In this document: positions 426-15,301 of the stretch, one piece after another
How positions within the stretch are numbered: the first letter of the stretch is position 1
Layout: every line of letters starts with the position of its first letter
Origin: Moheibacter sediminis
GTDB lineage: Bacteria > Bacteroidota > Bacteroidia > Flavobacteriales > Weeksellaceae
Direction of reading: 5' to 3'
Assembly: GCF_900176425.1 (NCBI RefSeq)
Contig: NZ_FWXS01000005.1
Coordinates: 186,001 to 250,000 of the forward strand
DNA: 64,000 bases
Notes under the pieces: model-generated
Database searches by the model: none
What the model saw: the letters and a program-made list of their open reading frames with translations, nothing else
What the model was told of the DNA's origin: nothing
Program-made: the position numbers and the translations under genes

Positions 426-1499
426 ATGAAATTCAAATTTATCCTTTATTTAGTAGTAACCTTGGGACTCGCTGCCATGGCTTATTTTTTATTTTTTCAT
501 GATTCGGACAAACCGAAAGAAGAGAAAAAAAATGGCGGCGGAGGTCCCGCTAAGGTTGAAGCAATTATCGTTAAACCTCAGTTTGCGGCAGACACTTTGA
601 CTTTGACAGGAAGTATTGATGCGGATGAAAAAGTCGAAATCAGAAGTGAAGTTTCAGGAATAGTAGAGAAAATTTACTTCAGCGAAGGCACAAGAGTAGG
701 ACAGGGACAAACATTGTTGAAAATCAACGACATTGAACTGCAGGCACAACTAAGATCCGCCGAAACCCGCCGACAATTAACTTCAGAAAATGAAAGAAGA
801 GCACGATTGCTTCTGGAAAAAGGAGCCATCAGTCAAGAAGAATATGACATTGCAAGTGCCGATTTCAAAACGGCTCAAGCACAGATTCAGTTAATTAAAG
901 CACAGATTTCCAAAACTTCGGTGAGAGCTCCATTTTCAGGGGTTATCGGTTTGCGGAATATTTCGCCGGGCGCATACATTTCTCCCGACATTTTGATTAC
1001 GAGTTTGGTGAAAAGCAGTCAGGTGAAAATTACGTTTTCGATTCCTGAAAAATATGCAAGTACTGTAAAACTCAATTCAAAAATATATTTCACGGTGGCC
1101 AATAGTTCAGAAAAATTTCCTGCAACCATTTATGCCATTCAACCTGAAATTGAAATCAATACAAGAACCCTTTCTGTGAGAGCAAAAGCAGATAACTCCA
1201 AAGGAAATTTGATTCCCGGAACTTTTGCCAACATTGCTTTTGATTTAAACGAAGTTGATGACGCGATTATGGTTCCGACAGAAGCGATAGTTCCGGTGCA
1301 GGATGGCAAAAAAGTTTTTATTTATAAAAATGGAAAAGCGAAAGAAGTCATGGTGCAAACGGGAAGCAGAAGTCAATCAGACGTAATTGTTTTGTCCGGG
1401 TTAAATCCTTCCGATACTGTAATCACAACCGGAGTCTTGAGTTTGAAAGACGGTGCTGATGTTAAAATTACGCTCAAAAATAAACCTGCGAAGTCATGA
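426..1499 (+). CDS. RND efflux periplasmic adaptor (HlyD/AcrA family)
   Basis: Membrane fusion protein that links an inner-membrane RND pump to a TolC-like channel. A single N-terminal hydrophobic segment (about residues 4-23) anchors it; there is no lipobox cysteine, so it is probably membrane-anchored rather than a lipoprotein. A short Gly-rich linker leads to the split biotinyl-lipoyl/barrel-sandwich domain (VEIRSEVSGIVEKIYFSEG and TSVRAPFSGVIGLRNISPG). These halves flank a helical hairpin at about 95-160, followed by beta-barrel and membrane-proximal domains. At 357 aa it has the usual length. Its stop overlaps the start of the pump gene (ATGA), so the two are translationally coupled. Confidence 0.95.
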   Translation: MKFKFILYLVVTLGLAAMAYFLFFHDSDKPKEEKKNGGGGPAKVEAIIVKPQFAADTLTLTGSIDADEKVEIRSEVSGIVEKIYFSEGTRVGQGQTLLKINDIELQAQLRSAETRRQLTSENERRARLLLEKGAISQEEYDIASADFKTAQAQIQLIKAQISKTSVRAPFSGVIGLRNISPGAYISPDILITSLVKSSQVKITFSIPEKYASTVKLNSKIYFTVANSSEKFPATIYAIQPEIEINTRTLSVRAKADNSKGNLIPGTFANIAFDLNEVDDAIMVPTEAIVPVQDGKKVFIYKNGKAKEVMVQTGSRSQSDVIVLSGLNPSDTVITTGVLSLKDGADVKITLKNKPAKS

Positions 1500-4400
1500 G
1501 TTTACCGTCACTTTCGATAAAAAGACCGGTTTTGACCATCGTGATGAATGTGACCATCATTCTATTTGGTTACATTGGATTTAATTTTTTGGGGATTCGT
1601 GAATATCCTTCCATTGATCCCGCAATTGTTTCCGTTCAGACGAATTATGCGGGTGCCAATGCCGATATCATCGAATCTCAAATCACTGAACCTTTGGAAA
1701 AATCCATTAATTCAATTGATGGAATTAAAAATATTTCTTCTTCAAGTAACCAAGGTTCGAGTAGAATTACGGTTGAATTTGAACTGGAAAAAGATTTGGA
1801 AGAAGCTGCAAATGATGTTCGTGATAAAGTTTCCCAAGCCGTAAGAAATCTTCCGCAAGACATCGATGCGCCGCCTGTAGTTTCCAAAGCAGATGCGGAT
1901 TCAGACCCAATCATTGTGATGTCGGTTCAGAGTTCATCCCGAAATAAATTAGAGCTGAGCGATTATGCTGAAAATGTAATCAGTGAAAGACTACAGACAA
2001 TTCCCGGCGTGAGCGGCGTTCAGATTTGGGGGCAGCAACGGTATGCGATGCGTTTGTGGTTTGATCCGATCAAAATGGCTGCTTATGGAATTACAGTGAG
2101 CGATGTCAGAGATGCTTTGAATACCCAGAACGTTGAATTACCAACAGGGAAATTAGTTGGTGCAAATACAGAACTCACAGTTAAAACTTTAGGTAATTTA
2201 TCCAATGAAACGGAATTCAACAACATTATCATCAAAACCAATGGCGATAAAATTGTCCGTTTCAGCGATGTAGGTTATGCCAGCTTACAATCTGAAAACC
2301 TCGAAACCAAAATGGTGAGTGACGGAAAACAATTGGTCGGTGTAGCGGTGATTCCGCAACCGGGAACCAATTACATCGACATTGCCAACTCATTTTATGA
2401 AGTTTTTGATCAATTAAAAGAAGAAGTTCCGGAAGATATCATTTTAGATGTTTCAGCTGACAATACGCTTTTCATCAAAAAATCAGTGATAGAAGTAGTC
2501 GAAACTTTAGCCATTGCAATCATTTTAGTGGTATTGATTATTTATGTTTTTTTTCGGGATTGGTCGATTTCATTGCGTCCGTTGCTGGACATTCCGGTTT
2601 CATTGATTGCGACTTTTTTTATCATGTACTTGTTTGGTTTTTCGATCAACGTACTCACGCTTCTCGCAATCGTTTTAGCAACCGGATTAGTAGTTGACGA
2701 CGGAATTGTAGTGACTGAAAATATTTATAAAAAAGTAGAAGAAGGCATGTCGCCAATGGAAGCCGCGATCAAAGGTTCGAACGAAATTATGTTTGCTGTG
2801 ATTTCCATTTCGATCACTTTGGCTGCTGTATTTTTACCTGTTATTTTCTTGGAAGGATTTGTTGGAAGATTGTTCAGGGAATTCGGAGTCGTCATCGCTT
2901 CGGCTGTTCTCGTATCTGCCTTTGTATCTTTGACTTTGACACCGATGTTGAATGCTTATTTAATGAAAGGAGGTAAGCAGAAACAATCTAAAATGTACCG
3001 TTTGACAGAACCTTATTTTGAAAAAATGAACAGTGGTTACGCCAAATCATTGACAAGATTTGTTCATAATAAATGGCTCAGCTTTCCGATTTTGATTGCT
3101 TGTTTCATGTTAATCGCATATTTCTTTACAACCATCAAAAAAGAAACGGCACCATATGACGACAGAAGTAACGTATCGATGAGTATTGCAGGTCCTGAAG
3201 GTGCGTCATTTGAATATATGGACCGCTACATGAAGGAATTAGACAAACTCGTTCACGATTCCGTTCCTGAAACCAAAGTGGCTTTGGTCATCACTTCGCC
3301 CGGATTTGGTTCTGCTTCGGTAAACAGCGGAAGGGTTCGGATAACTTTGGTAGAAACAGATGAAAGAGAACGTTCACAAGCAGATGTTGCAGATGAGCTG
3401 ACCAAATGGACAAAAGCTTATAATGGAGTCAGAGTAAATGTTTCACAGCAGCCTACAATTGCAGTGAACAGGCGTGGAGGCATGCCGATTCAATACATCA
3501 TTCAGGCACCGAATTTTGAAAAGTTAAGAGAAAAAATTCCATTGTTCATGGAAGAAATCAATAATGATCCGACTTTTTCCAATACCGATATTAATTTAAA
3601 ATTCAACAAACCCGAAATCAATGTCACCATTGACCGCTCCAAAGCGCAATCTATGGGTGTGTCGATGCTCGATATCGCGCAGACTTTGCAGCTTTCATTG
3701 AGCGGACAGCGTTTCGGATATTTCATGCGCGACGGAAAACAGTACCAGGTCATCGGGCAGTTTGAGGACAAAGACCGCGATGCACCCATTGATTTGACAT
3801 CGCTTTTTGTAAAAAATAATGTGGGACAATTAATTCAATTGGATAATATAGTTCAAACACACGAAGAAAGCAGTCCACCGCAGTTGTATCACAACAATCG
3901 TTTTATGGCAGCTACGGTTTCTGCAGGATTGTCTCCAGGAAAAAGTATCAGCGATGGAATTGAAGCGATGGACAGAGCCAAAGAAAAAATTCTTGATGAA
4001 ACATTTACGACCGATTTAAGTGGTGAATCCCGTGATTTTGTGGAAAGTAGTTCTAATACTTTATTTGCATTTGCATTGGCTTTGGTTTTGATTTATTTAA
4101 TTCTGGCAGCACAATTCGAAAGTTTCATCGATCCGTTTATCATCATTTTGACCGTGCCGATGGCAGTTGCAGGAGCGTTCATTTCCTTATGGATTTTTGG
4201 ACAGACTTGGAACATTTTCAGCCAGATCGGAACCATCATGCTCATCGGGCTAGTTACGAAAAACGGAATTCTCATTGTGGAATTTGCCAATCAATTGCGT
4301 GAAAAGGGAATGTCAAAATACGAAGCCACTATCAAAGCTTCTGAATCTCGCTTGCGTCCGATTTTGATGACAAGTTTGGCAATTGCTTTGGGGGCATTGC

Positions 4401-4588
4401 CGATTGCAATGTCATTGGGCGCTGCTTCTGTAAGCCGTATGGGGATGGGAATTGTAATCGTAGGTGGAACGATTTTTTCCTTGATTCTGACACTTTTTGT
4501 AATTCCTGCAATTTACCTCATGTGGTCAAGACCCAAAAAAGTGCACAAAGAATTGGTTGAATTAAATAAAAATGACAATGAAATATAG
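1496..4588 (+). CDS. RND multidrug efflux transporter permease (AcrB/MexB type, HAE-1)
   Basis: Proton-driven inner-membrane pump of 1030 aa, full length for the HAE-1 family. It shows the expected duplicated plan: TM1 near residue 10-30, a large periplasmic porter loop, TM2-6, then a repeat of this plan. TM4 carries the proton-relay aspartates in ATGLVVDDGIVVTENIYKK, and TM10 has the matching lysine in GLVTKNGILIVEFANQ. The start overlaps the adaptor stop by 4 nt and the end overlaps the TolC-like gene by 11-17 nt, giving a tight three-gene operon. The substrate cannot be read from sequence; drugs, dyes, detergents or fatty acids are typical for relatives. Confidence 0.96.
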   Translation: MSLPSLSIKRPVLTIVMNVTIILFGYIGFNFLGIREYPSIDPAIVSVQTNYAGANADIIESQITEPLEKSINSIDGIKNISSSSNQGSSRITVEFELEKDLEEAANDVRDKVSQAVRNLPQDIDAPPVVSKADADSDPIIVMSVQSSSRNKLELSDYAENVISERLQTIPGVSGVQIWGQQRYAMRLWFDPIKMAAYGITVSDVRDALNTQNVELPTGKLVGANTELTVKTLGNLSNETEFNNIIIKTNGDKIVRFSDVGYASLQSENLETKMVSDGKQLVGVAVIPQPGTNYIDIANSFYEVFDQLKEEVPEDIILDVSADNTLFIKKSVIEVVETLAIAIILVVLIIYVFFRDWSISLRPLLDIPVSLIATFFIMYLFGFSINVLTLLAIVLATGLVVDDGIVVTENIYKKVEEGMSPMEAAIKGSNEIMFAVISISITLAAVFLPVIFLEGFVGRLFREFGVVIASAVLVSAFVSLTLTPMLNAYLMKGGKQKQSKMYRLTEPYFEKMNSGYAKSLTRFVHNKWLSFPILIACFMLIAYFFTTIKKETAPYDDRSNVSMSIAGPEGASFEYMDRYMKELDKLVHDSVPETKVALVITSPGFGSASVNSGRVRITLVETDERERSQADVADELTKWTKAYNGVRVNVSQQPTIAVNRRGGMPIQYIIQAPNFEKLREKIPLFMEEINNDPTFSNTDINLKFNKPEINVTIDRSKAQSMGVSMLDIAQTLQLSLSGQRFGYFMRDGKQYQVIGQFEDKDRDAPIDLTSLFVKNNVGQLIQLDNIVQTHEESSPPQLYHNNRFMAATVSAGLSPGKSISDGIEAMDRAKEKILDETFTTDLSGESRDFVESSSNTLFAFALALVLIYLILAAQFESFIDPFIIILTVPMAVAGAFISLWIFGQTWNIFSQIGTIMLIGLVTKNGILIVEFANQLREKGMSKYEATIKASESRLRPILMTSLAIALGALPIAMSLGAASVSRMGMGIVIVGGTIFSLILTLFVIPAIYLMWSRPKKVHKELVELNKNDNEI

Positions 4589-5876
4589 TTTCATTTTATC
4601 CCTAGTATTAATTTCGGTTTTTGCGCAAGCACAAAATTATCTAACGCCCGAAGATGCCGTTTCGACAGCAATAGAAAATAATTTCGACATCAAAATTGCC
4701 AAAAACAATTTAGAAATTGATCAAATCAATGTCAACCGTGGAAATGCTGGGATGTTGCCTTCATTGACCGGAGAATTTAACATGAACAACAGCATTCTCA
4801 ATTCCAAACAAGAAAGAGCGGACGGTACCATTCAGGAACTCAACGGTGCCCGAAACAATGCGTTGAATTACGGCGTCAACCTCAATTGGACAATTTTTGA
4901 CGGTTTTTCCATGTTTGCCCGATATGACCAACTTAAAGAATTTCAAAAACAAGGTGAAGCCGAACTGAAAACAAGTGTTGTTACTCTAGCAAGTCAGGTT
5001 TTGGCAACATATTTTGATTTAATCCAGCAGCACCAGATTTTGGAAGCTTACCGCGAAGCGATTGATTTGTCACAGTTTCGTTTGACTTTGGCAGAAACAA
5101 GATTTGAAATTGGGAAAGCAGCTAAACTGGAAGTTTTAAATGCGAAAGTAGATTTGAATACAGACCAAACAAATTTACTGCGTCAATTGGAATTAATTGA
5201 AAATACAAAAACATACCTCAATCTTTTGATGGCAGAAGATTTGAAAACGCCCATTGTCGTTCAGTCCGAATGGGAAATCAACCAGGAATTGGTTTTAGAT
5301 GAATTGATTTCACTTGCTGAACAACAAAATCCAATAATCCAAACGGCTTTGATCAACCAAACCATTGCAGAACAAGAGTTGAAAAGAATTAAAGGGAACC
5401 GCTATCCACAGATTGCGCTCAATACGGGATATAATTTCACACACAGTGAAAATACATTGGGTTTTGCACGGGTAAATGATGGCAGAGGTTTCAATTATGG
5501 TGTTTCAGTTTCACTCAATATTTTCAATGGATTGATTCAGAAAAGAAATGAAAGTATAGCCAAAATTCAGATTGAAAATTCACAGGTTTTGATTGACCAG
5601 CAAAGACAAAATATCCAGTCGCAAATTATCTCCAATTACCAAACTTATCAGACCAATTTGGAACTGATTACTTTGGAATTGAGTAACGAAGAGATTGCCA
5701 AAGAAAACTTAGACATCACGCTCGAAAAATTCCGCATCGGAACCATTACCACTTTGGAAGTAAGAACTGCACAGCAGAATTACATCGATGCGATGACCCG
5801 TGTGAGTGATGCGAAATTCCAAGCGAAAATCTCCGAAATCCGCTTGCGCGAATTGGCAGGAAATGTTTTGAATTAA
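4578..5876 (+). CDS. TolC-family outer membrane efflux channel
   Basis: Outer-membrane channel that completes the tripartite pump. Two in-frame ATGs (4572, 4578) are possible; I prefer 4578 because it begins directly with a signal peptide (MKYSFILSLVLISVFAQAQ, cleavage after AQA). The longer form has 434 aa. The mature part shows the internal duplication of OEP proteins: two long helical coiled-coil segments (about 40-200 and 230-420), including the motif LEVRTAQQNYIDAMTRVSDAK near the end. It overlaps the pump gene and shares its transcript. Downstream, at 5884-5996, lies a degenerate intergenic repeat that may act as the 3' end of the operon. Confidence 0.93.
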   Translation: MKYSFILSLVLISVFAQAQNYLTPEDAVSTAIENNFDIKIAKNNLEIDQINVNRGNAGMLPSLTGEFNMNNSILNSKQERADGTIQELNGARNNALNYGVNLNWTIFDGFSMFARYDQLKEFQKQGEAELKTSVVTLASQVLATYFDLIQQHQILEAYREAIDLSQFRLTLAETRFEIGKAAKLEVLNAKVDLNTDQTNLLRQLELIENTKTYLNLLMAEDLKTPIVVQSEWEINQELVLDELISLAEQQNPIIQTALINQTIAEQELKRIKGNRYPQIALNTGYNFTHSENTLGFARVNDGRGFNYGVSVSLNIFNGLIQKRNESIAKIQIENSQVLIDQQRQNIQSQIISNYQTYQTNLELITLELSNEEIAKENLDITLEKFRIGTITTLEVRTAQQNYIDAMTRVSDAKFQAKISEIRLRELAGNVLN

Positions 5877-6446: not shown

Positions 6447-6535
6447 AATCGATTAATTTAATTGAAGTTTTTGCAAATGATGTGCCACTTACTTTTCAAA
6501 AATAATCAAATCAAGTATTGGATGGCAAAAATTGT

Positions 6536-6575
6536 AAAAAAAATCTGCGACTCAATATTCCGAGCCACAGATTTT
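6536..6575 (-). terminator. Rho-independent terminator after cphA
   Basis: Read on the minus strand, AAAATCTGTGGCTC and GAGTCGCAGATTTT form a 14-bp stem with two G-T pairs around an 8-nt loop, followed by a run of T. It lies 25 nt past the cphA stop codon. Confidence 0.85.
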
Positions 6576-6599
6576 CCTCATGTGTATAATTGTGTATTT

Positions 6600-9227
6600 T
6601 TATCCTGAAATTACGCTTTCATTTTCTTTGTCCAAATAGCTTTGTACGATTTCTATAGCATTTGTAACCACGTCACTCAATGCTGTAATGAAAGTTCCGT
6701 CTTTTGCATTATTGATAGCATGTTTGATGGCTTCGACTTCTTTCGGGATGATTTCATAAGTGATTTCTTTGTTCGACGAATGAATTCCTTCCAAAATCAA
6801 ATCAATGATTTCTTGTTCAGTTCTTCCACGCAAATGTTTTTCTTGTCGGATGATGATATGGTCAAACATCCTTCCTGCAATCCGCCCGCATTCTTTGATG
6901 TCTTCATCTCGTCTGTCACCTACACCGGCAATGATTCCGATTTTGTGTGGAGAATCTATATTTCCTAAGAAATCTTCAATAGCCATGTATCCTTTTGGGT
7001 TATGAGCAAAATCAATCATTACCTGGAAATTTTTGAAATTAAATATGTTCAATCTTCCCGGAGTTTGTGCAGCACTTGGAATAAATGTCTGCAAAGATAA
7101 ACTCAAATCTTCCGAATTAAATCCTGATAAATAGCCCGCTAAAGTTGCTGCCAAAGCATTTGCAATCATGAATTTCGCTTTACCGCCTACAGTAATTGGA
7201 ACTTGGGTTACACGTTCAATTCTGATTTTCCAGTCTCCTTTTTTGATGGTAATGTATCCGTTTTCAAAAACCGCCAAAGTTTTGCCAGCTTTTGAAAGTG
7301 CCTGTACATGCGGCTGATTTTCATCCATACTGAAATAAGCAATGTTACATTCCAGGTCTTTAGAGATTTTCATACAATGTTCATCATCCGCATTCAGAAT
7401 TGCCCACCCGTCATTTTTGATGCTGTGTACGACAACTCTTTTTACTTTAGCCAAATCTTCCAGATCATGGATGTCATTTAATCCCAAATGATCTTCTTGG
7501 ATATTGGTGATAATTCCAATGTCACATCGGCTAAAACCCAATCCTGCTCTCAAAATTCCACCACGAGCCGTTTCTAAAACAGCAAATTCAACTGTCGGAT
7601 CTTTCAATATATATTCCGCACTAAATGGTCCGGTTGTGTCGCCTTTTTCCAACAGATGATTTTGAATGTAAATTCCATCTGAGGTCGTAAAACCAACACG
7701 GTAACCTTTGTTTTTAACCATGTGAGCCAAAAGCCTCGTAGTGGTAGTTTTCCCATTGGTTCCTGTAACAGCAATAATCGGAATACGGCTTGGTTTTCCC
7801 GGAGGATAAAGCATATCGATTACCGGAGCGGCTACGTTTCTTGGCAATCCCTCGGAAGGAGCCAAGTGCATTCTGAATCCCGGAGCGGCATTTACTTCTA
7901 AAATAACGCCACCGTTTTCCTGTAAAGGCTGCGTAAGATTTTCTGCCATGATATCGATCCCACAAACGTCTAATCCTATGATTCTTGAAATTCTTTCAGC
8001 AAGGAAAATATTTTCCGGATGAATCATATCTGTGACATCGATGGAAGTTCCACCTGTACTCAGATTTGCAGTAGACTTCAAATAAACAATTTCTCCTCTT
8101 TTGGGAACTGATTCTTCTGTATATCCCAATTTATCTAATAAATCCAAAGAATCACGGTCGATATTGATTTCGGTCAAAACATTTTCATGACCATATCCAC
8201 GGCGTGGGTCTTGATTTTCGGTGTCAATTAATTCTCTAACTGTATTTTCTCCGTTTCCGATGACGTGTGCAGGAACTCTTTGTGCTGCTGCAACCATTTT
8301 GTGATTAATTACTAAAATACGGAAGTCGTGTCCTGTAATGAATTTTTCTACAATAACTCTTCTGCCATATTTTTGTGCATGTTCCAATCCTGCTTTGGCA
8401 TCCTCAAAATTGGTTACATTAATGGAAGCACCTTTCCCGTGATTTCCACCCAAAGGTTTGATTACAATCGGATACCCGATTTTATTAATTGTAGCAACCA
8501 AATCTTCTTCGTCAACACAAATAGAACCTGAAGCGACTGGCACTGAAGAATTCTCCAGCATTTTTTTGGTTTCTTCTTTGTCGCATGCAATATCAACGGC
8601 TATATTGCTCGTGTTACAAGTAATTGTTGCCTGAAAACGCATTTGATTGATTCCATAACCCAATTGAACTAAAGAATTTGTTCCCAAACGAATCCATGGA
8701 ATATCACGCGCAACTGCCTCTTCCACAATGCTTCCCGTACTCGGTCCTAAACGAACTCGTTCGCGGATTTCGCGCATGCGCTGAATGTCGGCCTCTAAAT
8801 CATATTCTGTTCCGTCAACCAAAGCCTGCGCAATTCTTACTGAAGCTTCAGCTGCAAACATCCCAACACTTTCTTCCACATAACTGAAAACCACATTATA
8901 AACACCTGGTGTTTTGGTAACACGTGTGCGGCCAAATCCCGTATCCATTCCTGCAAGTGTTTGAATTTCAAGTGCGATGTGTTCTATTACGTGACCCATC
9001 CAGGTTCCGTTTTCAATTCGCATAAAAAAACCGCCACGCACACCTTCCGAACATCTGTGTTCAATAAGGGTAGGCATCATGGCTTCGATTCTTTCACGGA
9101 AACCTTCTATTTTATTGGTTGGTAATTCTTCTAATTCTTGTAAATCCAAACGCATCTGGATTAATTTTTTTCTTCTTACACTCCAAATATTTGGACCTCT
9201 CAGCGCCTGAATTTTCAATATTTCCAT
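6600..9227 (-). CDS. cphA: Cyanophycin synthetase
   Basis: Non-ribosomal synthesis of cyanophycin (a poly-Asp backbone with Arg side chains) as a nitrogen and carbon store in cytoplasmic granules. The 875-aa length matches CphA1 enzymes. An N-terminal domain (1-160) is followed by an ATP-grasp domain (about 220-475; IGYPIVIKPLGGNHGKGAS and VILEVNAAPGFRMHLAPSEG), which adds Asp. A Mur-ligase-like domain (about 480-870; P-loop VTGTNGKTTTTRLL at 487-500, TNIQEDHLG) adds Arg. Both active-site signatures are intact, so this should be a complete two-step enzyme. It is divergent from cyanophycinase and isoaspartyl peptidase genes. CphA2 enzymes, which polymerise the dipeptide, lack one functional site, so CphA1 fits better. 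Confidence 0.95.
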   Translation of the reverse strand: MEILKIQALRGPNIWSVRRKKLIQMRLDLQELEELPTNKIEGFRERIEAMMPTLIEHRCSEGVRGGFFMRIENGTWMGHVIEHIALEIQTLAGMDTGFGRTRVTKTPGVYNVVFSYVEESVGMFAAEASVRIAQALVDGTEYDLEADIQRMREIRERVRLGPSTGSIVEEAVARDIPWIRLGTNSLVQLGYGINQMRFQATITCNTSNIAVDIACDKEETKKMLENSSVPVASGSICVDEEDLVATINKIGYPIVIKPLGGNHGKGASINVTNFEDAKAGLEHAQKYGRRVIVEKFITGHDFRILVINHKMVAAAQRVPAHVIGNGENTVRELIDTENQDPRRGYGHENVLTEINIDRDSLDLLDKLGYTEESVPKRGEIVYLKSTANLSTGGTSIDVTDMIHPENIFLAERISRIIGLDVCGIDIMAENLTQPLQENGGVILEVNAAPGFRMHLAPSEGLPRNVAAPVIDMLYPPGKPSRIPIIAVTGTNGKTTTTRLLAHMVKNKGYRVGFTTSDGIYIQNHLLEKGDTTGPFSAEYILKDPTVEFAVLETARGGILRAGLGFSRCDIGIITNIQEDHLGLNDIHDLEDLAKVKRVVVHSIKNDGWAILNADDEHCMKISKDLECNIAYFSMDENQPHVQALSKAGKTLAVFENGYITIKKGDWKIRIERVTQVPITVGGKAKFMIANALAATLAGYLSGFNSEDLSLSLQTFIPSAAQTPGRLNIFNFKNFQVMIDFAHNPKGYMAIEDFLGNIDSPHKIGIIAGVGDRRDEDIKECGRIAGRMFDHIIIRQEKHLRGRTEQEIIDLILEGIHSSNKEITYEIIPKEVEAIKHAINNAKDGTFITALSDVVTNAIEIVQSYLDKENESVISG

Positions 9228-9403
9228 AATGGTTAAGTAATTTTTAGTGTAATTAAGTTTAACAAATAATTAAACTCATATTTTGATAAAATTAACAATT
9301 ATTTTGAATTAACTGTATTTTATCATGAAAAAAAATAAAAAATAGTCAGTTTATAATCCATTTTAAATTACAAAATGAAATTAGGGAGTTATAAAAATAT
9401 TCT

Positions 9404-9411
9404 TAGTTTTG
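9404..9411 (+). promoter_or_regulatory. -7 promoter box of cphB (TAnnTTTG)
   Basis: TAGTTTTG matches the Bacteroidota -7 consensus TAnnTTTG and ends only 4 nt before the cphB ATG at 9416. Transcription would start at or next to the start codon, implying a leaderless or near-leaderless mRNA. I found no clear -33 TTG at the expected distance. Confidence 0.55.
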
Positions 9412-9415
9412 TCGC

Positions 9416-10297
9416 ATGAGTATTAAAGGAAAACTAATTATTATCGGTGGAGCTGTAGACAAAGGCAGTTTTACTGAAGTAAGTTTTGACGAAAATGTTG
9501 CCAACAACCTAAACTTTTTCGAAAAGGGAATTCTTAAGCGTTTAATCAACGAGTCAAAACATAAAAATGAATCCCGAATTGAAGTAATTACAACTGCTTC
9601 GACGATACCATTGGAAGTGGGAGCGGAATATATAAAGGCGTTCAATTATTTGGGTGCGACAGAGGTAGATGTATTACATATTCAAAAACGTGAGCAAGCT
9701 ATGCAGCCTGAAGTTCTCGAAAGAGTAAGAAAAGCTGATGTTGTAATGTTCACGGGTGGAGACCAACTTCGTTTGACTTCTATTTTGGGAGGAACAGAAT
9801 TTCAGGATATCCTTTTGGATAAATATCATAACGAAGATTTCATTTATGCAGGAACTTCCGCAGGAGCAGCCGCAGCTTCGAGCAGTATGATTTACCAAGG
9901 TTCTAGCAAAGAAGCCTTGTTGAAAGGTGAAGTGAAAATCACAAGCGGATTAGGTTTTATTGAAGATGTGATTGTTGATACGCATTTTGTGCAGAGAGGA
10001 CGCATCGGGCGTTTGTTTCAGGCGGTTGTAGGAAATCCAAAAGTTTTGGGGATCGGTTTGGGAGAAGATACCGGATTATTGATAAAGGACGGAACGAAAA
10101 TGGAAGCCATCGGTTCCGGATTGGTAATTTTGGTGGACGGAAGACAAATCAAAAATACAAATCTTACCGATGTTTCGTTGGGTAAACCTGTTTCTATCAG
10201 CAATTTGATTGTCCATGTAATGAGTCAGACCGATACATATGATTTGAATACTTCTGAATTAATCATCCACGGCGAATCTGTACAAGAAGTTGAATAA
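9416..10297 (+). CDS. cphB: Cyanophycinase (peptidase family S51)
   Basis: Serine exopeptidase that cuts cyanophycin into beta-Asp-Arg dipeptides in the cytoplasm. At 293 aa it has the usual length. The nucleophile elbow AGTSAGAAAASS is present, with the catalytic Ser at about 148, as is the upstream FTGGDQ motif near 113-117 that is typical of S51 family CphB. There is no signal peptide, which separates it from secreted CphE-type enzymes and fits recycling of internal granules. The next gene starts at the base after its stop codon and encodes the enzyme that splits the dipeptide. Confidence 0.94.
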   Translation: MSIKGKLIIIGGAVDKGSFTEVSFDENVANNLNFFEKGILKRLINESKHKNESRIEVITTASTIPLEVGAEYIKAFNYLGATEVDVLHIQKREQAMQPEVLERVRKADVVMFTGGDQLRLTSILGGTEFQDILLDKYHNEDFIYAGTSAGAAAASSSMIYQGSSKEALLKGEVKITSGLGFIEDVIVDTHFVQRGRIGRLFQAVVGNPKVLGIGLGEDTGLLIKDGTKMEAIGSGLVILVDGRQIKNTNLTDVSLGKPVSISNLIVHVMSQTDTYDLNTSELIIHGESVQEVE

Positions 10298-11140
10298 ATG
10301 AAGATCATCATTCATGGTGGATTTTTCAGTGAATCCCATACCAATCAGGAAACCAAAATCGCAAAGCAGGAAGCGCTGAAAAGAATTGCTTCCAAATCTT
10401 TTGAATTTTTGAAAAATCATTCCGCTTTGGAAACAGTAGTTTATGCTGTTTCTCTTTTGGAAGATGACGAATTGTTCAATGCCGGAATCGGTTCCCAAAT
10501 CCAAAGTGACGGCGAAATCCGTATGAGTGCTTCTTTGATGGATGGAACTACAGAAAAAATGAGTGGTGTCATAAACATTCAAAATGTAAAAAACCCAATT
10601 CAGGTTGCAGAAAAATTGTTGAGTTATGATGATAAAGTCTTGGGTGGAGAAGGGGCAACTAAATTTGCGAGAAAAAACGGATTTGAATTTTTCTCAACTG
10701 AAATCCCGCAACGAAAAGAAGAGTATTTGGCCAAAGCAAAATCAAACGGTTCGGGAACTGTTGGTTGTGTAGCTTTAGATACCAATGGGAAATTAGCTGT
10801 TGCAACTTCCACAGGTGGAAAAGGTTTTGAAATTCCGGGAAGAATTTCAGACTCTGCAACGGTTGCCGGAAATTATGCCAATCAAAACTGTGCGGTGAGC
10901 TGCACAGGAGTAGGAGAGGATATCGTGAGCGGAGCAGTCGCAGCTAAAATCGTTACGCGAGTAACAGATGGATTAAAAATTGAAAAAGCATTTTCCAGAA
11001 CTTTTGATGAATTGAAACCTTTTGACGGTTTTGCGGGTGCGATCGCGATTGATAAATCAGGAAATATTTACCACCAAGATTCGCATCCTTCTATGGTTTA
11101 TGCTTCTTTTGATGGGGAGAATTTTGAGGTTTTTAATTGA
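10298..11140 (+). CDS. iaaA: Isoaspartyl peptidase / plant-type L-asparaginase
   Basis: N-terminal nucleophile hydrolase that hydrolyses beta-aspartyl dipeptides. Here the likely substrate is beta-Asp-Arg from cyanophycin, giving Asp and Arg. Family motifs are clear: FNAGIGS (60-66), the autocleavage site GSGTVG with catalytic Thr154, the STGG motif (171-174) and GRISDS (181-186). The ATG directly follows the cphB TAA, so the two are surely co-transcribed. At 280 aa it is somewhat shorter than E. coli IaaA (about 320), with a compact N-terminus (HGGF in place of HGGAG) and a compact C-terminus. Asparaginase or general isoaspartyl-repair activity remains possible. Confidence 0.92.
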   Translation: MKIIIHGGFFSESHTNQETKIAKQEALKRIASKSFEFLKNHSALETVVYAVSLLEDDELFNAGIGSQIQSDGEIRMSASLMDGTTEKMSGVINIQNVKNPIQVAEKLLSYDDKVLGGEGATKFARKNGFEFFSTEIPQRKEEYLAKAKSNGSGTVGCVALDTNGKLAVATSTGGKGFEIPGRISDSATVAGNYANQNCAVSCTGVGEDIVSGAVAAKIVTRVTDGLKIEKAFSRTFDELKPFDGFAGAIAIDKSGNIYHQDSHPSMVYASFDGENFEVFN

Positions 11141-11146
11141 TATATC

Positions 11147-11740
11147 GTGAGATTCAGAATTTCTATATTTTTAACTATCTTTTTTTTATTTGCAGCTTGC
11201 AAAAAACAAAATTCCGATTATAGAGAAATTAAATTCAAAAGATTTAATTGGACTCTTAATATTCCTAAAAGTTTTGAGGCTGTTAGTAAACAGGATTGGG
11301 AAAAACATCAAAATAGAGGAACTCAAGCAATAGAAAATACTCTTGGAGAAACAATAGAAAACAATTCTAAAATAATTTTCATTTTTAAGAAATCTAATTT
11401 AAATATATTTGAAGCAAGTTTTCAACCATTTGATGAAAGCATTGATGGAAATCATTCTGATTCTTTTGATATGGTTAATGAAATTTTAACTGAAACATTC
11501 AATAATCAGATTCCAGATATTATTATAGATGAAGAAAGATCTGTAGAAATGATTGATGGATTAAAGTTTCAGGTTAATAAAATCAAATTGACATATCCTA
11601 ACAATACTAAGTTCTATAATGAAATGCATAGTACTCTCATTGGGAAGGAAGAATTAACTGTAAACATAATGTATACCGATGAAAAACTTGGAGAAATTAT
11701 GAGAGAATCATTTCTTTCCTCAAAATTTGGCAATAATTAA
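11147..11740 (+). CDS. Uncharacterised lipoprotein
   Basis: I do not recognise this family. The frame begins at GTG 11147, 6 nt after the isoaspartyl peptidase stop. The N-terminus (FRISIFLTIFFLFAACKK) is a lipoprotein signal with lipobox FAAC, which supports that start. The mature part, about 180 aa, is charged and soluble, with a beta-rich pattern (RFNWTLNIPKSFEAVSKQDW, then two strands near the end) resembling other Bacteroidota lipoproteins of unknown role. It is visibly more AT-rich than the cyanophycin genes before it. It could be read through from that operon, but a functional link is not shown. Confidence 0.7.
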   Translation: MRFRISIFLTIFFLFAACKKQNSDYREIKFKRFNWTLNIPKSFEAVSKQDWEKHQNRGTQAIENTLGETIENNSKIIFIFKKSNLNIFEASFQPFDESIDGNHSDSFDMVNEILTETFNNQIPDIIIDEERSVEMIDGLKFQVNKIKLTYPNNTKFYNEMHSTLIGKEELTVNIMYTDEKLGEIMRESFLSSKFGNN

Positions 11741-11877
11741 ATTGTTTATTTTATAAACACCCTCATGATTGATATCATAATTCAATAAATTTAAATTATT
11801 AAAACACTAAAAATCAATTAGATAAATTTATCATAAATCCCCTAAATTCCACGATTACATTTAGCTATTGAGTTCTT

Positions 11878-11908
11878 TTCTATCCTGAATTTGTCAGACA
11901 TAATTTTG
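11878..11908 (+). promoter_or_regulatory. Promoter of the peroxiredoxin operon
   Basis: TTG (11878-11880), a 20-nt spacer, then TAATTTTG (11901-11908): a good match to the Bacteroidota housekeeping promoter TTG-N17-23-TAnnTTTG. It gives a leader of about 20 nt before the ATG at 11933. Confidence 0.7.
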
Positions 11909-11932
11909 CCTTGAATTTAAAACCAAAAGATT

Positions 11933-12571
11933 ATGTCATTAGTAGGAAAAAAAGCCCCACAATTTATCGCTCCGGCAGTTTTGGACGGAGAAGAAATCGT
12001 TTCAGACTTCGCATTGCCAATCGGCGAGAAAAATATAGTTTTATTCTTTTATCCAAAAGATTTCACATTTGTTTGTCCAACAGAATTGCACGCATTTCAA
12101 GCTAAGTTAGCTGAATTTGAAAAAAGAGATGCCGTTGTGGTAGCAGTTTCTACTGATTCGGAAGAAACACACTTAGCTTGGTTAAATACTGAAAAAGACA
12201 ACGGAGGCATACAAGGTGTAACTTATCCGGTAGTTGCTGACTTAGCAAAAACAATTTCTATGGATTACGGTGTTTTGGCAGGAGAATATGTAAATGATTA
12301 TGAAACGGACAGAATCGTTTTCCAAGGTCTTCCGGTAGCTTACCGTGGAACTTTCATCATCGACAAAAACGGTGTAGTTCGCCACGAAACTATCAACGAT
12401 TTGCCATTGGGAAGAAATATCGAAGAGTATGTACGTTTGTTGGATGCTATTCTTCATGTAGAGAAATTCGGAGAAGTTTGTCCTGCAAACTGGGAAGAAG
12501 GAAAAGCTGCGATGAACGCAACCAAAGACGGTGTTGCTGAATATTTATCAACTAACGTTAATTTGAACTAA
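11933..12571 (+). CDS. 2-Cys peroxiredoxin (AhpC/Prx1 type)
   Basis: Thiol peroxidase that reduces hydrogen peroxide and organic peroxides. The peroxidatic Cys48 sits in FYPKDFTFVCPTE, and the resolving Cys183 lies in FGEVCPANWEEGK, so this is a typical 2-Cys enzyme active as a dimer or decamer. At 212 aa it has the usual length. It is followed after 3 nt by a thioredoxin-like gene, probably its reductant, and by a DUF6952-like gene; I know this trio as a recurrent one in flavobacteria. A good TTG-N20-TAATTTTG promoter lies just upstream, so the operon is probably strongly and constitutively expressed. Confidence 0.95.
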   Translation: MSLVGKKAPQFIAPAVLDGEEIVSDFALPIGEKNIVLFFYPKDFTFVCPTELHAFQAKLAEFEKRDAVVVAVSTDSEETHLAWLNTEKDNGGIQGVTYPVVADLAKTISMDYGVLAGEYVNDYETDRIVFQGLPVAYRGTFIIDKNGVVRHETINDLPLGRNIEEYVRLLDAILHVEKFGEVCPANWEEGKAAMNATKDGVAEYLSTNVNLN

Positions 12572-12574
12572 ATC

Positions 12575-12889
12575 ATGTTCGTAGAAATTTCAGAAGATAA
12601 TTTACCCGAAATATTGAACCAAAATCCAAAAGTTTTGGTTCAGTTCGGAGCGACCTGGTGCGGAAACTGCCGCTTGCTCAAACCAAAAGTAAAACGTTTG
12701 GCAGAAGCAAATCCTGATATTCAGTTCATTTACGTTGATGCCGAAAAATTCCCAGAAAGCCGTAAGCTAGCCGAAGTTACCAACCTTCCTACGTTCGCAA
12801 TTTATAATCAGGGAACTTTTGTCAATCAGGTAGTGACATCGAAAGAAGAACATTTAAAAGAGATTACAAATGAAATTGCCGGTTTATAA
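12575..12889 (+). CDS. Thioredoxin-family protein, CGNC active site
   Basis: Compact thioredoxin-fold protein of 104 aa without signal peptide. The redox motif is WCGNC (Cys29 and Cys32) instead of the classic WCGPC, which usually shifts the redox potential. The cis-proline segment NLPTFAIYNQG is present. It lies 3 nt after the peroxiredoxin stop and overlaps the next gene by 20 nt, so all three are one translational unit. The likely role is reduction of the resolving disulfide of the neighbouring peroxiredoxin; that partner assignment is inferred from the operon. Confidence 0.9.
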   Translation: MFVEISEDNLPEILNQNPKVLVQFGATWCGNCRLLKPKVKRLAEANPDIQFIYVDAEKFPESRKLAEVTNLPTFAIYNQGTFVNQVVTSKEEHLKEITNEIAGL

Positions 12890-13118
12890 AAATTTAGCAA
12901 AATCAGTTTCCAACGAAGCCATGGAAAATGCTTTGGAAGTATTGGAAATCTATGCCGATTCGCCTGCTGTAAAGGAAGAGGAAAGGGAAGCCATCGGCGA
13001 AATCATCTCAAACATCTGCGGAGCGATGGAAATGAAAGCAATGGTTGATGACGGAATGAGCGAACGCGATGCAGCCAACCATTTCATGAAAAGAGTTTTA
13101 GGCTCGATTGATAGATAA
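12870..13118 (+). CDS. Small conserved protein, DUF6952-like
   Basis: A predicted helical, acidic protein of 82 aa that overlaps the thioredoxin gene by 20 nt. It resembles a flavobacterial family I know as DUF6952 (pattern EREAIGEIISNICGAMEM...HFMKRVLGSI), found right after peroxiredoxin and thioredoxin genes. No catalytic residues, cysteines for redox work (only one Cys) or membrane segments are seen. The position suggests an accessory role in peroxide defence, but the function is unknown. It could bind the peroxiredoxin or the thioredoxin. Confidence 0.75.
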   Translation: MKLPVYKNLAKSVSNEAMENALEVLEIYADSPAVKEEEREAIGEIISNICGAMEMKAMVDDGMSERDAANHFMKRVLGSIDR

Positions 13119-13120
13119 AA

Positions 13121-13150
13121 AGGTCATTCAGAACGAAGTGAAGAACCTGA
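13121..13150. repeat. Degenerate intergenic repeat, copy B
   Basis: GGTCATTCAGAACGAAGTGA followed by AGAACCTG, a half-unit of the same family as 5884, 18905, 43409 and 61340. It starts 3 nt after the DUF6952-like stop codon. Confidence 0.55.
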
Positions 13151-13200
13151 ATTTAGCTAATAAAAATAAAGAGATTTTTTTTCATAATAGATTGATTTTA

Positions 13201-13229
13201 GACCCGAGGACGAAAGTTTTCGGGTTTTT
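13201..13229 (+). terminator. Rho-independent terminator of the peroxiredoxin operon
   Basis: ACCCGAGGAC and GTTTTCGGGT pair over 10 bp (two G-T pairs) around a GAAA tetraloop, followed by TTTTT. It separates the peroxiredoxin operon from dnaK. Confidence 0.85.
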
Positions 13230-13345
13230 GATTTAGTAATACAATTTGTATTTTTTTCTTAAGCGGTAAATGGATAATTATTACACTTTAATTCAAAATC
13301 TGTCATTCTGTCATTAAATTCTGACAATTAATTCCAAAAATTCTG

Positions 13346-13363
13346 TTGGCACAATCATTGACT
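13346..13363 (+). promoter_or_regulatory. Sigma-54-like promoter of dnaK
   Basis: TTGGCACAATCATTGAC contains GG (13348-13349), ten bases, then GA (13360-13361). Sigma-54 promoters need GG-N10-GC, so this is a near match with a C-to-A change at -12. The predicted start near 13373 leaves a 30-nt leader. Upstream are TGTCA (13301), TGTCA (13309) and inverted TGACA (13322), which could bind an activator. A similar GG-N10-GA element precedes the DUF2383 gene at 31557. Confidence 0.45.
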
Positions 13364-13402
13364 ATTGAATTGAAAAATTAATCTACAATAAAATTATATA
13401 AA

Positions 13403-15301
13403 ATGAGTAAAATAATAGGAATTGACTTAGGTACTACAAACTCCTGCGTTGCAGTGATGGAGGGTAGCGAACCTGTTGTAATCCCAAATGCAGAAGGTAA
13501 AAGAACTACTCCTTCGATCGTAGCTTTCGTAGAAGGTGGTGAAAGAAAAGTGGGAGATTCGGCAAAAAGACAAGCCGTGACCAACCCGCACAAAACTATT
13601 TATTCGATTAAAAGATTCATGGGAAGCACATTCTCAGAAGCAAACAAAGAAACAGAACATGTTCCGTACAAAATTGTCAAAGGTGACAATGACACCCCGC
13701 GCGTAGAAATTGACGGACGCAATTATACACCGCAAGAAATCTCTGCAATGGTACTTCAAAAAATGAAGAAAACAGCAGAAGATTATTTAGGACATGAAGT
13801 AACGCAAGCCGTTATTACGGTTCCTGCATATTTTAACGATGCACAGCGTCAGGCTACAAAAGAAGCCGGAGAAATTGCAGGTTTGAAAGTAGAAAGAATT
13901 ATCAATGAGCCGACTGCAGCAGCATTGGCTTATGGTTTGGATAAAGCAAACAGCGACAAAAAAATAGCAGTTTATGACTTGGGTGGGGGAACTTTTGATA
14001 TTTCAATCCTTGAATTAGGAGACGGAGTTTTTGAAGTACTTTCTACAAATGGTGACACACATTTGGGTGGAGATGATTTTGACAATGCAATCATCAAATG
14101 GCTGGCTGACGAATTCCAGTCAGAAGAAAATGTAGATTTGAGAAAAGATGCGATGGCACTTCAACGTTTGAGAGAAGCAGCTGAAAAAGCAAAAATCGAA
14201 TTATCTTCTTCTGCACAAACTGAAATAAATTTGCCATATATCACAGCAAATGAAACAGGTCCTAAGCACTTGGTAAAAACTTTGACTCGCGCAAAATTTG
14301 AACAATTGACAGACGATTTGGTTCGTCGTTCGATGGATCCATGTAAAAAAGCATTAAGTGATGCAGGTTTGTCTGCTTCGCAAATTGATGAAGTGATTTT
14401 GGTAGGGGGTTCTACACGTATCCCGAAAATTCAGGAAGAAGTAGAAAAATTCTTTGGTAAAGTTCCTTCAAAAGGAGTAAATCCTGACGAAGTTGTAGCG
14501 ATTGGAGCAGCAATCCAAGGTGGAGTTTTGACCGGTGATGTGAAAGATGTATTGTTGTTAGACGTTACACCGCTTTCATTGGGTATTGAAACTTTAGGTG
14601 GTGTTTTCACTAAATTGATTGAATCCAACACAACCATTCCCACGAAAAAATCTGAAACTTTCTCAACAGCAGCTGACAACCAACCTGCAGTAACTTTGAG
14701 AATCGGTCAGGGTGAGCGTTCTATGTTCAATGACAACAAAGAAATCGGAAGATTTGACTTGATTGACATTCCGCCTGCACCACGTGGTGTTCCACAAATC
14801 GAAGTAACTTTTGATATCGATGCAAACGGTATCTTACACGTTTCTGCGAAGGACAAAGGAACAGGAAAAGAGCAGTCTATCAAAATTGAAGCTTCTTCAG
14901 GTTTGAGCGATGAAGACATCCAGAGAATGAAACGAGAAGCGGAGGAAAATGCATCAAAAGATGCTGAAGCCAAAGAAAAAATCGAAAAAATTAATGGCGC
15001 TGACGCTTTAATTTTCCAAACGGAGAAACAATTGAAAGAATACGGAGAGAAAATTCCGGCTGACAAAAAAGAACCGATTGAAACTGCTTTGGCAGAACTG
15101 AAAACGGCACATTCAACTCAGGAAGTTTCACAAATCGACCCAGCTGTTGAGAAGTTAAATGAAGCTTGGGCAGCGGCATCCCAGGAATTGTACGCTGCGA
15201 TGAACGAGCAACAAGCTGCAGCAAATCCGGCAGATTCTGCAGAAACAACTGCAAAAGCCGATGGCGAAGTGGAAGATGTAGATTTCGAAGAAGTGAAATA
15301 A
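13403..15301 (+). CDS. dnaK: Chaperone DnaK (Hsp70)
   Basis: ATP-dependent cytoplasmic chaperone. The N-terminal actin-like ATPase carries [17 protein letters not shown], the phosphate-2 loop [17 protein letters not shown] and the adenosine motif [11 protein letters not shown]. The beta-sandwich substrate-binding domain starts after the conserved linker [19 protein letters not shown] helical lid and a tail ending EDVDFEEVK complete the 632-aa, full-length protein. Neither grpE nor dnaJ is next to it, as is usual for flavobacteria. It is a single-gene unit with a terminator behind it and a sigma-54-like element in front, so stress control through an activator is possible. Confidence 0.98.

Follow-up and report, generated by a model that had tools for sequence, protein, structure and literature searches.

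The window analysed here, a stretch of 64,000 nucleotides (nt) of the Moheibacter sediminis genome (assembly GCF_900176425.1, contig NZ_FWXS01000005.1, positions 186,001 to 250,000), very probably carries a cytoplasmic module for the storage and recycling of cyanophycin, with a peptidase candidate linked to the cyanophycinase gene cphB and a degradation mRNA predicted to be leaderless. The other two genes concerned are cphA1, for a cyanophycin synthetase, and an iaaA-type gene for the peptidase. The system itself is of a known kind; new here are the dedicated-looking clade to which the peptidase belongs and the conserved position of the promoter. As a genomic prediction, the complete cyanophycin cycle proposed earlier for this locus (hereafter the original prediction) is supported by homology and comparative genomics.

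In the proposed mechanism, CphA1 would extend a poly-Asp backbone by Asp and attach Arg to every side chain in a second reaction, with one ATP site for each reaction, and its N domain would probably cut short primers, so that no outside primer would be needed. On need for nitrogen, carbon or energy, CphB would cut the polymer to beta-Asp-Arg dipeptides, which an N-terminal nucleophile (Ntn) hydrolase, self-cleaved before Thr154, would split into Asp and Arg. The mRNA for degradation would start at, or a few bases from, the cphB start codon, using the usual flavobacterial sigma factor.

Gene content, co-occurrence and gene order

The three open reading frames lie where they had been placed (open-frame list; Table 1), and the divergent layout, with cphA read one way and cphB-iaaA the opposite way, is backed by the window sequence and by relatives. 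The first product is a full-length CphA1-like synthetase, as proposed (TIGR02068, 1266.5 bits, cut-off 850, residues 2-863 of 875), and the second is a CphB-type cyanophycinase (TIGR02069, 235.1 bits, cut-off 126.6). The third had been called an isoaspartyl peptidase, which stood at family level (Asparaginase_2, 266.4 bits, cut-off 27) and failed for the E. coli-type equivalog (NF007589, 132.8 of 567 bits); the protein is therefore a superfamily relative and not an E. coli-type equivalog. Its ATG directly follows the cphB TAA with zero gap, so the claimed abutment holds.

Co-occurrence was assessed within the family, using 197 genomes that were evenly drawn from a larger group and were each at least 90% complete. 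CphA1 exceeded the cut-off in 143, all of which carried a window-type cphB and 142 of which carried a window-type iaaA; neither gene was found in any of the 54 genomes without CphA1. In these 54, weak iaaA matches (E 1e-33 or weaker) occurred in 28 and none in 26, and weak cphB matches (E 1e-19 to 1e-23) in five. Within the genera that include both states (g9, g16, g17 and g19) the peptidase tracks CphA1, except in G056.

The cphB and iaaA genes are adjacent on the same strand in 141/142 of these genomes, the exception being G010, where both lie near contig ends; match-to-match gaps are 4-904 nt, with a median of 129. From this adjacency and the zero gap in the window we infer that cphB and iaaA form one transcript. 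The two genes also stay paired in five fetched family genomes with cphA elsewhere, so that the bond between cphB and the peptidase looks tighter than that between the peptidase and cphA.

A second sample comprised the best 80 of 580 confirmed CphA1 stretches in named loci, and is biased to close relatives; the closest named CphA among these 80, at 90%, is from an uncultured Moheibacter metagenome-assembled genome (MAG). The divergent cphA and cphB-iaaA arrangement is kept in 58/80, some partly seen at contig ends. For the other loci, the pair lies elsewhere in the stretch (1), cphB is found alone (1), neither gene is found (15), or the end is too close (5). Sixteen named genomes have no iaaA beside cphA, and 15 of them carry a window-type iaaA elsewhere, at an identity of at least 67%. 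Since the arrangement is kept across many genomes, chance is ruled out; the three-gene set is not unusual and is common among relatives.

The peptidase clade

The predicted structure of the peptidase (mean predicted local distance difference test score, pLDDT, 79.9) matches E. coli EcAIII (2zak) with a template modelling score of 0.90 over the query length. Substrate binding and catalysis in the E. coli enzyme (EcIaaA) are ascribed to T179, T197, R207, D210, S211, T230 and G231 (PMC10206079), and all seven are kept in 67/67 members of the window-type clade, which are about 280 amino acids (aa) long and 33-40% identical to E. coli IaaA. In maximum likelihood trees with and without a long-branched glycosylasparaginase (22 and 17 window-type proteins; bootstrap values of the first tree had not converged), a branch supported at 100/99 and 100/100 sets the window-type proteins apart. 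Six longer, cluster-linked IaaAs group separately in the same trees, near E. coli IaaA, so IaaA-type enzymes were apparently recruited to cyanophycin clusters on two or more occasions in Bacteroidota.

Five changes are fixed in the clade when judged against 22 comparator sequences, in EcIaaA numbering: K203 to E and G209 to S, where all 22 have K and G, respectively; M200 to K and V235 to D, where 0/22 have K or D; and E81 to R, where 21/22 have E. The changed residues would lie round the active-site entrance, and K203-to-E and E81-to-R may simply be the two sides of an exchanged salt bridge (Glu pairing with Arg75). In EcAIII, Met200 is described as a gate residue, with Lys among the residues found there naturally and M200K active on Asn (PMC10204187), and Gly209 is stressed for active-site geometry (PMC11077353). 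That the changes favour a positively charged leaving group is put forward as a guess. A structural reading of the altered gate residues was dropped, as the model has a pLDDT below 50 at residues 174-183 and 207-209.

Elsewhere in the same genome, no IadA exceeded the cut-off (TIGR01975, best 25.5 of 331.25 bits), and a single further Asparaginase_2 match was found, which most resembles glycosylasparaginase. The argG gene for Arg synthesis is present, and arginase-family matches are below the cut-off (85 of 227.6 bits). A plasmid search with the peptidase returned 121 records, all below 60% identity.

In 2023, Sharon and Schmeing wrote that in Firmicutes and Bacteroidota the isoaspartyl dipeptidases 'remain undiscovered'. 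The clade is a strong candidate for the missing enzyme of much of Bacteroidota, one that is concrete and easily tested, and if specific for beta-Asp-Arg the peptidase would be a useful reagent. A candidate linked to cphB occurs here in almost every family genome with CphA1 and in 10/21 of the phylum sample, whereas the 2023 survey counted few. No paper on this clade was found among the titles and abstract openings listed from the open-licence literature. An identity cut-off as the reason why the 2023 survey missed the clade was considered, given the 33-40% identity to EcIaaA, and is not claimed.

A role as a general isoaspartyl peptidase/asparaginase for the clean-up of damaged protein, with the cycle only a sideline, is a serious possibility, though it falls somewhat short of an even chance. 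RhIaaA and LmIadA, both from cyanophycin clusters, are reported to be promiscuous with no preference for beta-Asp-Arg/Lys (PMC10206079), and the Asp-binding residues of the window peptidase are identical to those of EcIaaA. Such housekeeping would not predict the presence of the gene in 142/143 genomes with CphA1 vs 0/54 without, and the fixed K203E, G209S and M200K also speak against it. A promiscuous enzyme could still serve the cycle, so this explanation overlaps with the store-and-recycle module, which fits both a specific and a promiscuous peptidase. In the Methods of PMC10206079 the query lists for IadA and IaaA look swapped: L. mucor is given for IaaA and R. halodurans for IadA, at odds with the remainder of that paper.

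A stronger version of the store-and-recycle reading is offered tentatively. It holds that a dedicated Ntn-type clade, specific for cyanophycin dipeptides, evolved in Bacteroidota with a re-charged active-site entrance and a leaderless mRNA shared with cyanophycinase, and that it is the chief dipeptidase still to be accounted for in the phylum. This solution would be separate from that of Proteobacteria, where the step is done by CphZ, an M14/aspartoacylase-type cyanophycin dipeptide hydrolase.

Predicted leaderless start of the degradation mRNA

The flavobacterial -7 element, TAnnTTTG, spans -12 to -5 (PMC9723704, PMC6847099); transcription would thus begin at the ATG itself when 4 nt separate the element from the start codon. 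The window has exactly this 4-nt spacing (TAGTTTTG-TCGC-ATG). Conservation was assessed at 102 cphB starts, some from the same or near-identical genomes, using a relaxed pattern, TAnnTTT[GA], whose final A is a relaxation of the published consensus. The pattern lay 3-6 nt 5' of the start in 70/102 (shuffles: mean 2.0, maximum 9) and exactly 4 nt 5' in 47/102 (shuffles: mean 0.5, maximum 4); for the strict TAnnTTTG the counts were 40/102 and 17/102. Before cphA and iaaA the relaxed element was found in 1/128 and 0/88, and the strict one in 0/128 and 0/88. Other ATG-start frames of at least 200 aa in the same loci had the relaxed element in 26/608, these control frames being started at the first ATG, so that their starts may be wrong. 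When 42 dissimilar cphB upstream regions were taken, 20 matched (shuffle mean 0.84, maximum 5 in 2000). Sorted by cphB identity, the element was present in 0/8 loci below 60%, 21/34 at 60-72% and 49/60 above. From the position of this element, the degradation mRNA is probably leaderless.

A misread element, with the true start codon downstream or the match being AT-rich noise, is unlikely. The region is AT-rich, the relaxed pattern admits TTTA, the loci are related, and errors in the first-ATG starts of the control frames would lower the control rate. Both the full set of loci and the dissimilar representatives lay far above their shuffles, however, and the strict element, present before cphB in 40/102, was found before none of the cphA and iaaA starts, which were placed alike; a conserved KGxLxxIGG stretch also follows soon after the cphB ATG. 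A scan for sigma-70-type promoters was uninformative (23 sites vs 19.5 expected).

Leaderless mRNAs make up 5.5% of the mapped mRNAs of Flavobacterium psychrophilum (PMC9723704), and 87% of probable-promoter transcripts in F. johnsoniae have leaders longer than 10 nt (PMC6847099). By these figures, a leaderless cphB would be a kept exception, and the predicted start an unusual conserved design for its group. If true, it would let degradation be switched on independently of leader-dependent control of translation. No paper on leaderless cyanophycinase transcripts was found in the open-licence literature.

Cyanophycin synthetase and cyanophycinase

The best PDB matches of the window CphA are cyanophycin synthases (7lg5 and others with the same sequence), over residues 1-862. 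Both catalytic sites had been described as intact, and this was borne out: the G-domain His (H263) and the M-domain Asp-His (D579 H580) align with H267 and D585 H586 of SuCphA1, which are sites of inactivating mutations (PMC9262961). The N-domain residues C59, H79, E82 and H83 (C-x19-HxxEH) are also present, with the same numbering as in SuCphA1, and the motif occurs in 121/124 CphA sequences of at least 830 aa from the gathered loci. It has been tied to primer-independent synthesis, with 83% of CphA1 having it and CphA2 being without it (PMC9262961). The window CphA, having the motif, is thus not of the CphA2 type; self-priming is expected and the enzyme is probably primer-independent. The genome has one full CphA1, its other three matches being 26-31% identical to parts of CphA1.

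The N-terminus of CphB (MSIKGKLIIIGG) has no apparent signal peptide, judged by eye alone; CphB enzymes, unlike CphE, are expected to be intracellular.

It is very unlikely that the synthetase makes a different branched product, in which Arg would be replaced by Lys, for instance, or by some other amino acid, and which the peptidases would then process. Some CphA1 enzymes accept Lys at lower efficiency (PMC10206079) and charges near the active site are altered in the peptidase clade, against which stand a CphA score more than 400 bits above the CphA1 equivalog cut-off, a full-length alignment to solved synthases, and a CphB that is a standard cyanophycinase by model.

Several variants of CphA were observed in other genomes. 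A second CphA, a frame of about 760-780 aa that matches from profile position 135-149 and is without the N domain, occurs in at least seven family genomes (G101, G122, G048, G086, G042, G004 and G113, among the matches listed). A second cphB-like match adjoins it in G042, G113 and G101, and a second synthetase module is possible. CphA looks split in L141 (G364), where a 171-aa N-domain gene (8840-9355) and a 737-aa gene for the G and M domains (11756-13969) lie 2.4 kb apart. In L128 (G138) cphA is in two overlapping frames (8322-9167 and 9128-10906), which may be real or a sequencing error, and a second cphA in G169 has one in-frame TAG. Three divergent Bacteroidota CphA (L133, L134 and L135) are without C-x19-HxxEH, which could make them dependent on a primer; their three stretches yielded neither cphB nor iaaA.

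Distribution in the phylum and weighing of the module

CphA1 exceeded the cut-off in 21 of 198 genomes spread over Bacteroidota. Cyanophycin cycling is suggested to be a widely kept trait of this large, mostly non-photosynthetic phylum.

A number of points weigh against the module as described. The window-type peptidase is present in only 10/21 phylum genomes with CphA1; 6/21 have a longer in-cluster IaaA that shares 50-56% identity with its E. coli counterpart, and 5/21 (G239, G319, G289, G359 and G266) have neither peptidase in the stretch round cphA. Conversely, 2/177 phylum genomes without CphA1 over the cut-off carry the window-type peptidase (G197 and G202). Within the family, iaaA is absent from one genome with CphA1 (G056), where cphB adjoins cphA, and it is likewise absent from G399, one of the named genomes, which is a MAG of 1.9 Mb and undetermined completeness. 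Gaps of up to 904 nt between cphB and iaaA mean that one transcript is not certain everywhere, and the genomes and loci are related, so that the counts ignore descent. The peptidase is under the cut-off of the beta-aspartyl-peptidase equivalog, as given above. At the promoter, the window is without a TTG 17-20 nt before the -7 element, and in the 35 loci whose strict element lies near the start a TTG 12-27 nt off is uncommon, the commonest spacing being 19 (5 loci); the -33 motif is weak as well in PMC6847099.

In G197 the peptidase lies near a TIGR02069 cyanophycinase (159.1 bits, cut-off 126.6) with a likely signal peptide, judged by eye, a DcuC/YfcC-type carrier and an RpiR regulator. The locus resembles the scavenging loci described in PMC10206079, and such a scavenging-like locus fits the use of cyanophycin dipeptides and is not a contradiction. 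In G202 (L129, 6089-12098) the peptidase lies near a YfcC-type carrier and an RpiR regulator, and no cyanophycinase was found in that stretch by BLAST; a MenC-like enolase-superfamily protein and an M14 peptidase are also encoded there.

That the window locus mainly scavenges cyanobacterial cyanophycin, with CphA1 secondary, is highly improbable: G197, with no CphA1 over the cut-off, does pair the iaaA clade with a likely-exported cyanophycinase, a carrier and RpiR, but the window CphB is without a signal peptide by eye, no amino-acid/peptide carrier is among the eight proteins scanned at or beside the locus (frames 426-5876, efflux-like by eye, being unscanned), and a strong cphB match was found in 0/54 family genomes without CphA1.

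Features of the locus and its neighbours

The features are listed in Table 1. Terminator-like sites numbered 9 in the region vs 4.4 expected from shuffles. A GTG-start, lipoprotein-like frame (11147-11740, +) begins 6 nt past iaaA. It matches no Pfam family and has no counterpart in the other loci compared, many of which end soon after iaaA; for want of such a counterpart, this possible operon member was dropped from the module. A META-domain gene has one weak match only among the other loci (L050), and a peroxiredoxin gene one match only, in G050 (L123), a genome of the same genus, where it directly follows iaaA.

Table 1. Positions in the window of the cyanophycin genes and associated features
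Feature	Position	Strand	Basis
Terminator-like hairpin 3' of cphA1	6535..6580	-	20-pair stem and T run; consensus match only
cphA1, cyanophycin synthetase 1, 875 aa	6600..9227	-	TIGR02068 1266.5 bits; PDB 7lg5
HxxEH, residues 79-83, putative N-domain primer-making site	8979..8993	-	C-x19-HxxEH pattern; role from PMC9262961
Cys59 codon of CphA1	9051-9053	-	C-x19-HxxEH starting at residue 59
Divergent intergenic region, 188 bp	9228..9415	.	
TAGTTTTG, flavobacterial -7 element (TAnnTTTG), 4 nt 5' of cphB ATG	9404..9411	+	predicted leaderless start
cphB, cyanophycinase, 293 aa	9416..10297	+	TIGR02069 235.1 bits; PDB 7uqv, 3en0
iaaA-type isoaspartyl peptidase, 280 aa, candidate beta-Asp-Arg dipeptidase	10298..11140	+	PF01112 266.4 bits; 2zak model match
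Thr154 codon, predicted autocleavage site and catalytic nucleophile (= EcIaaA Thr179)	10757..10759	+	
Glu178 codon; EcIaaA Lys203 position, Lys in 22/22 comparators	10829..10831	+	

Comparison with known systems

The window CphA1 shares its full length, catalytic residues and N-domain motif numbering with CphA1 of known structure (TIGR02068; SuCphA1, PDB 7lg5), and no difference was found that alters the expected reaction. For the cyanophycinase, the GTSAGA elbow and the DxHF...RxRxxR stretch of CphB (TIGR02069; PDB 3en0, 7uqv) align in the window protein, which has Thr for Gln before the conserved His.

Among Bacteroidota, the three cyanophycin genes have already been listed together for Dyadobacter linearis (PMC11573002), cphA has been reported in activated-sludge Flavobacteriales (PMC10687191), and CphA is co-expressed with metalloproteases in F. 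psychrophilum (PMC9723704), a record of which (L073) has the same gene arrangement as the window. Nothing on the peptidase clade or the promoter turned up in the consulted parts of these published accounts.

Compared with IaaA/EcAIII (PDB 2zak, 2zal; RhIaaA 8dqm), the window peptidase has the Ntn fold and the seven site residues in common. Its clade differs by M200K, K203E, G209S and V235D, by its length of about 280 aa, by its separate position in the trees, and by a pre-nucleophile span of 30-31 residues (67/67) vs at least 35 in 20/22 comparators. CphZ would carry out the same step as the window peptidase, the splitting of beta-Asp-Arg, but is of the M14/aspartoacylase type, a family unrelated to that of the window peptidase. 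A hydrolase of that type is said to explain the alpha- and gamma-Proteobacteria (PMC10206079).

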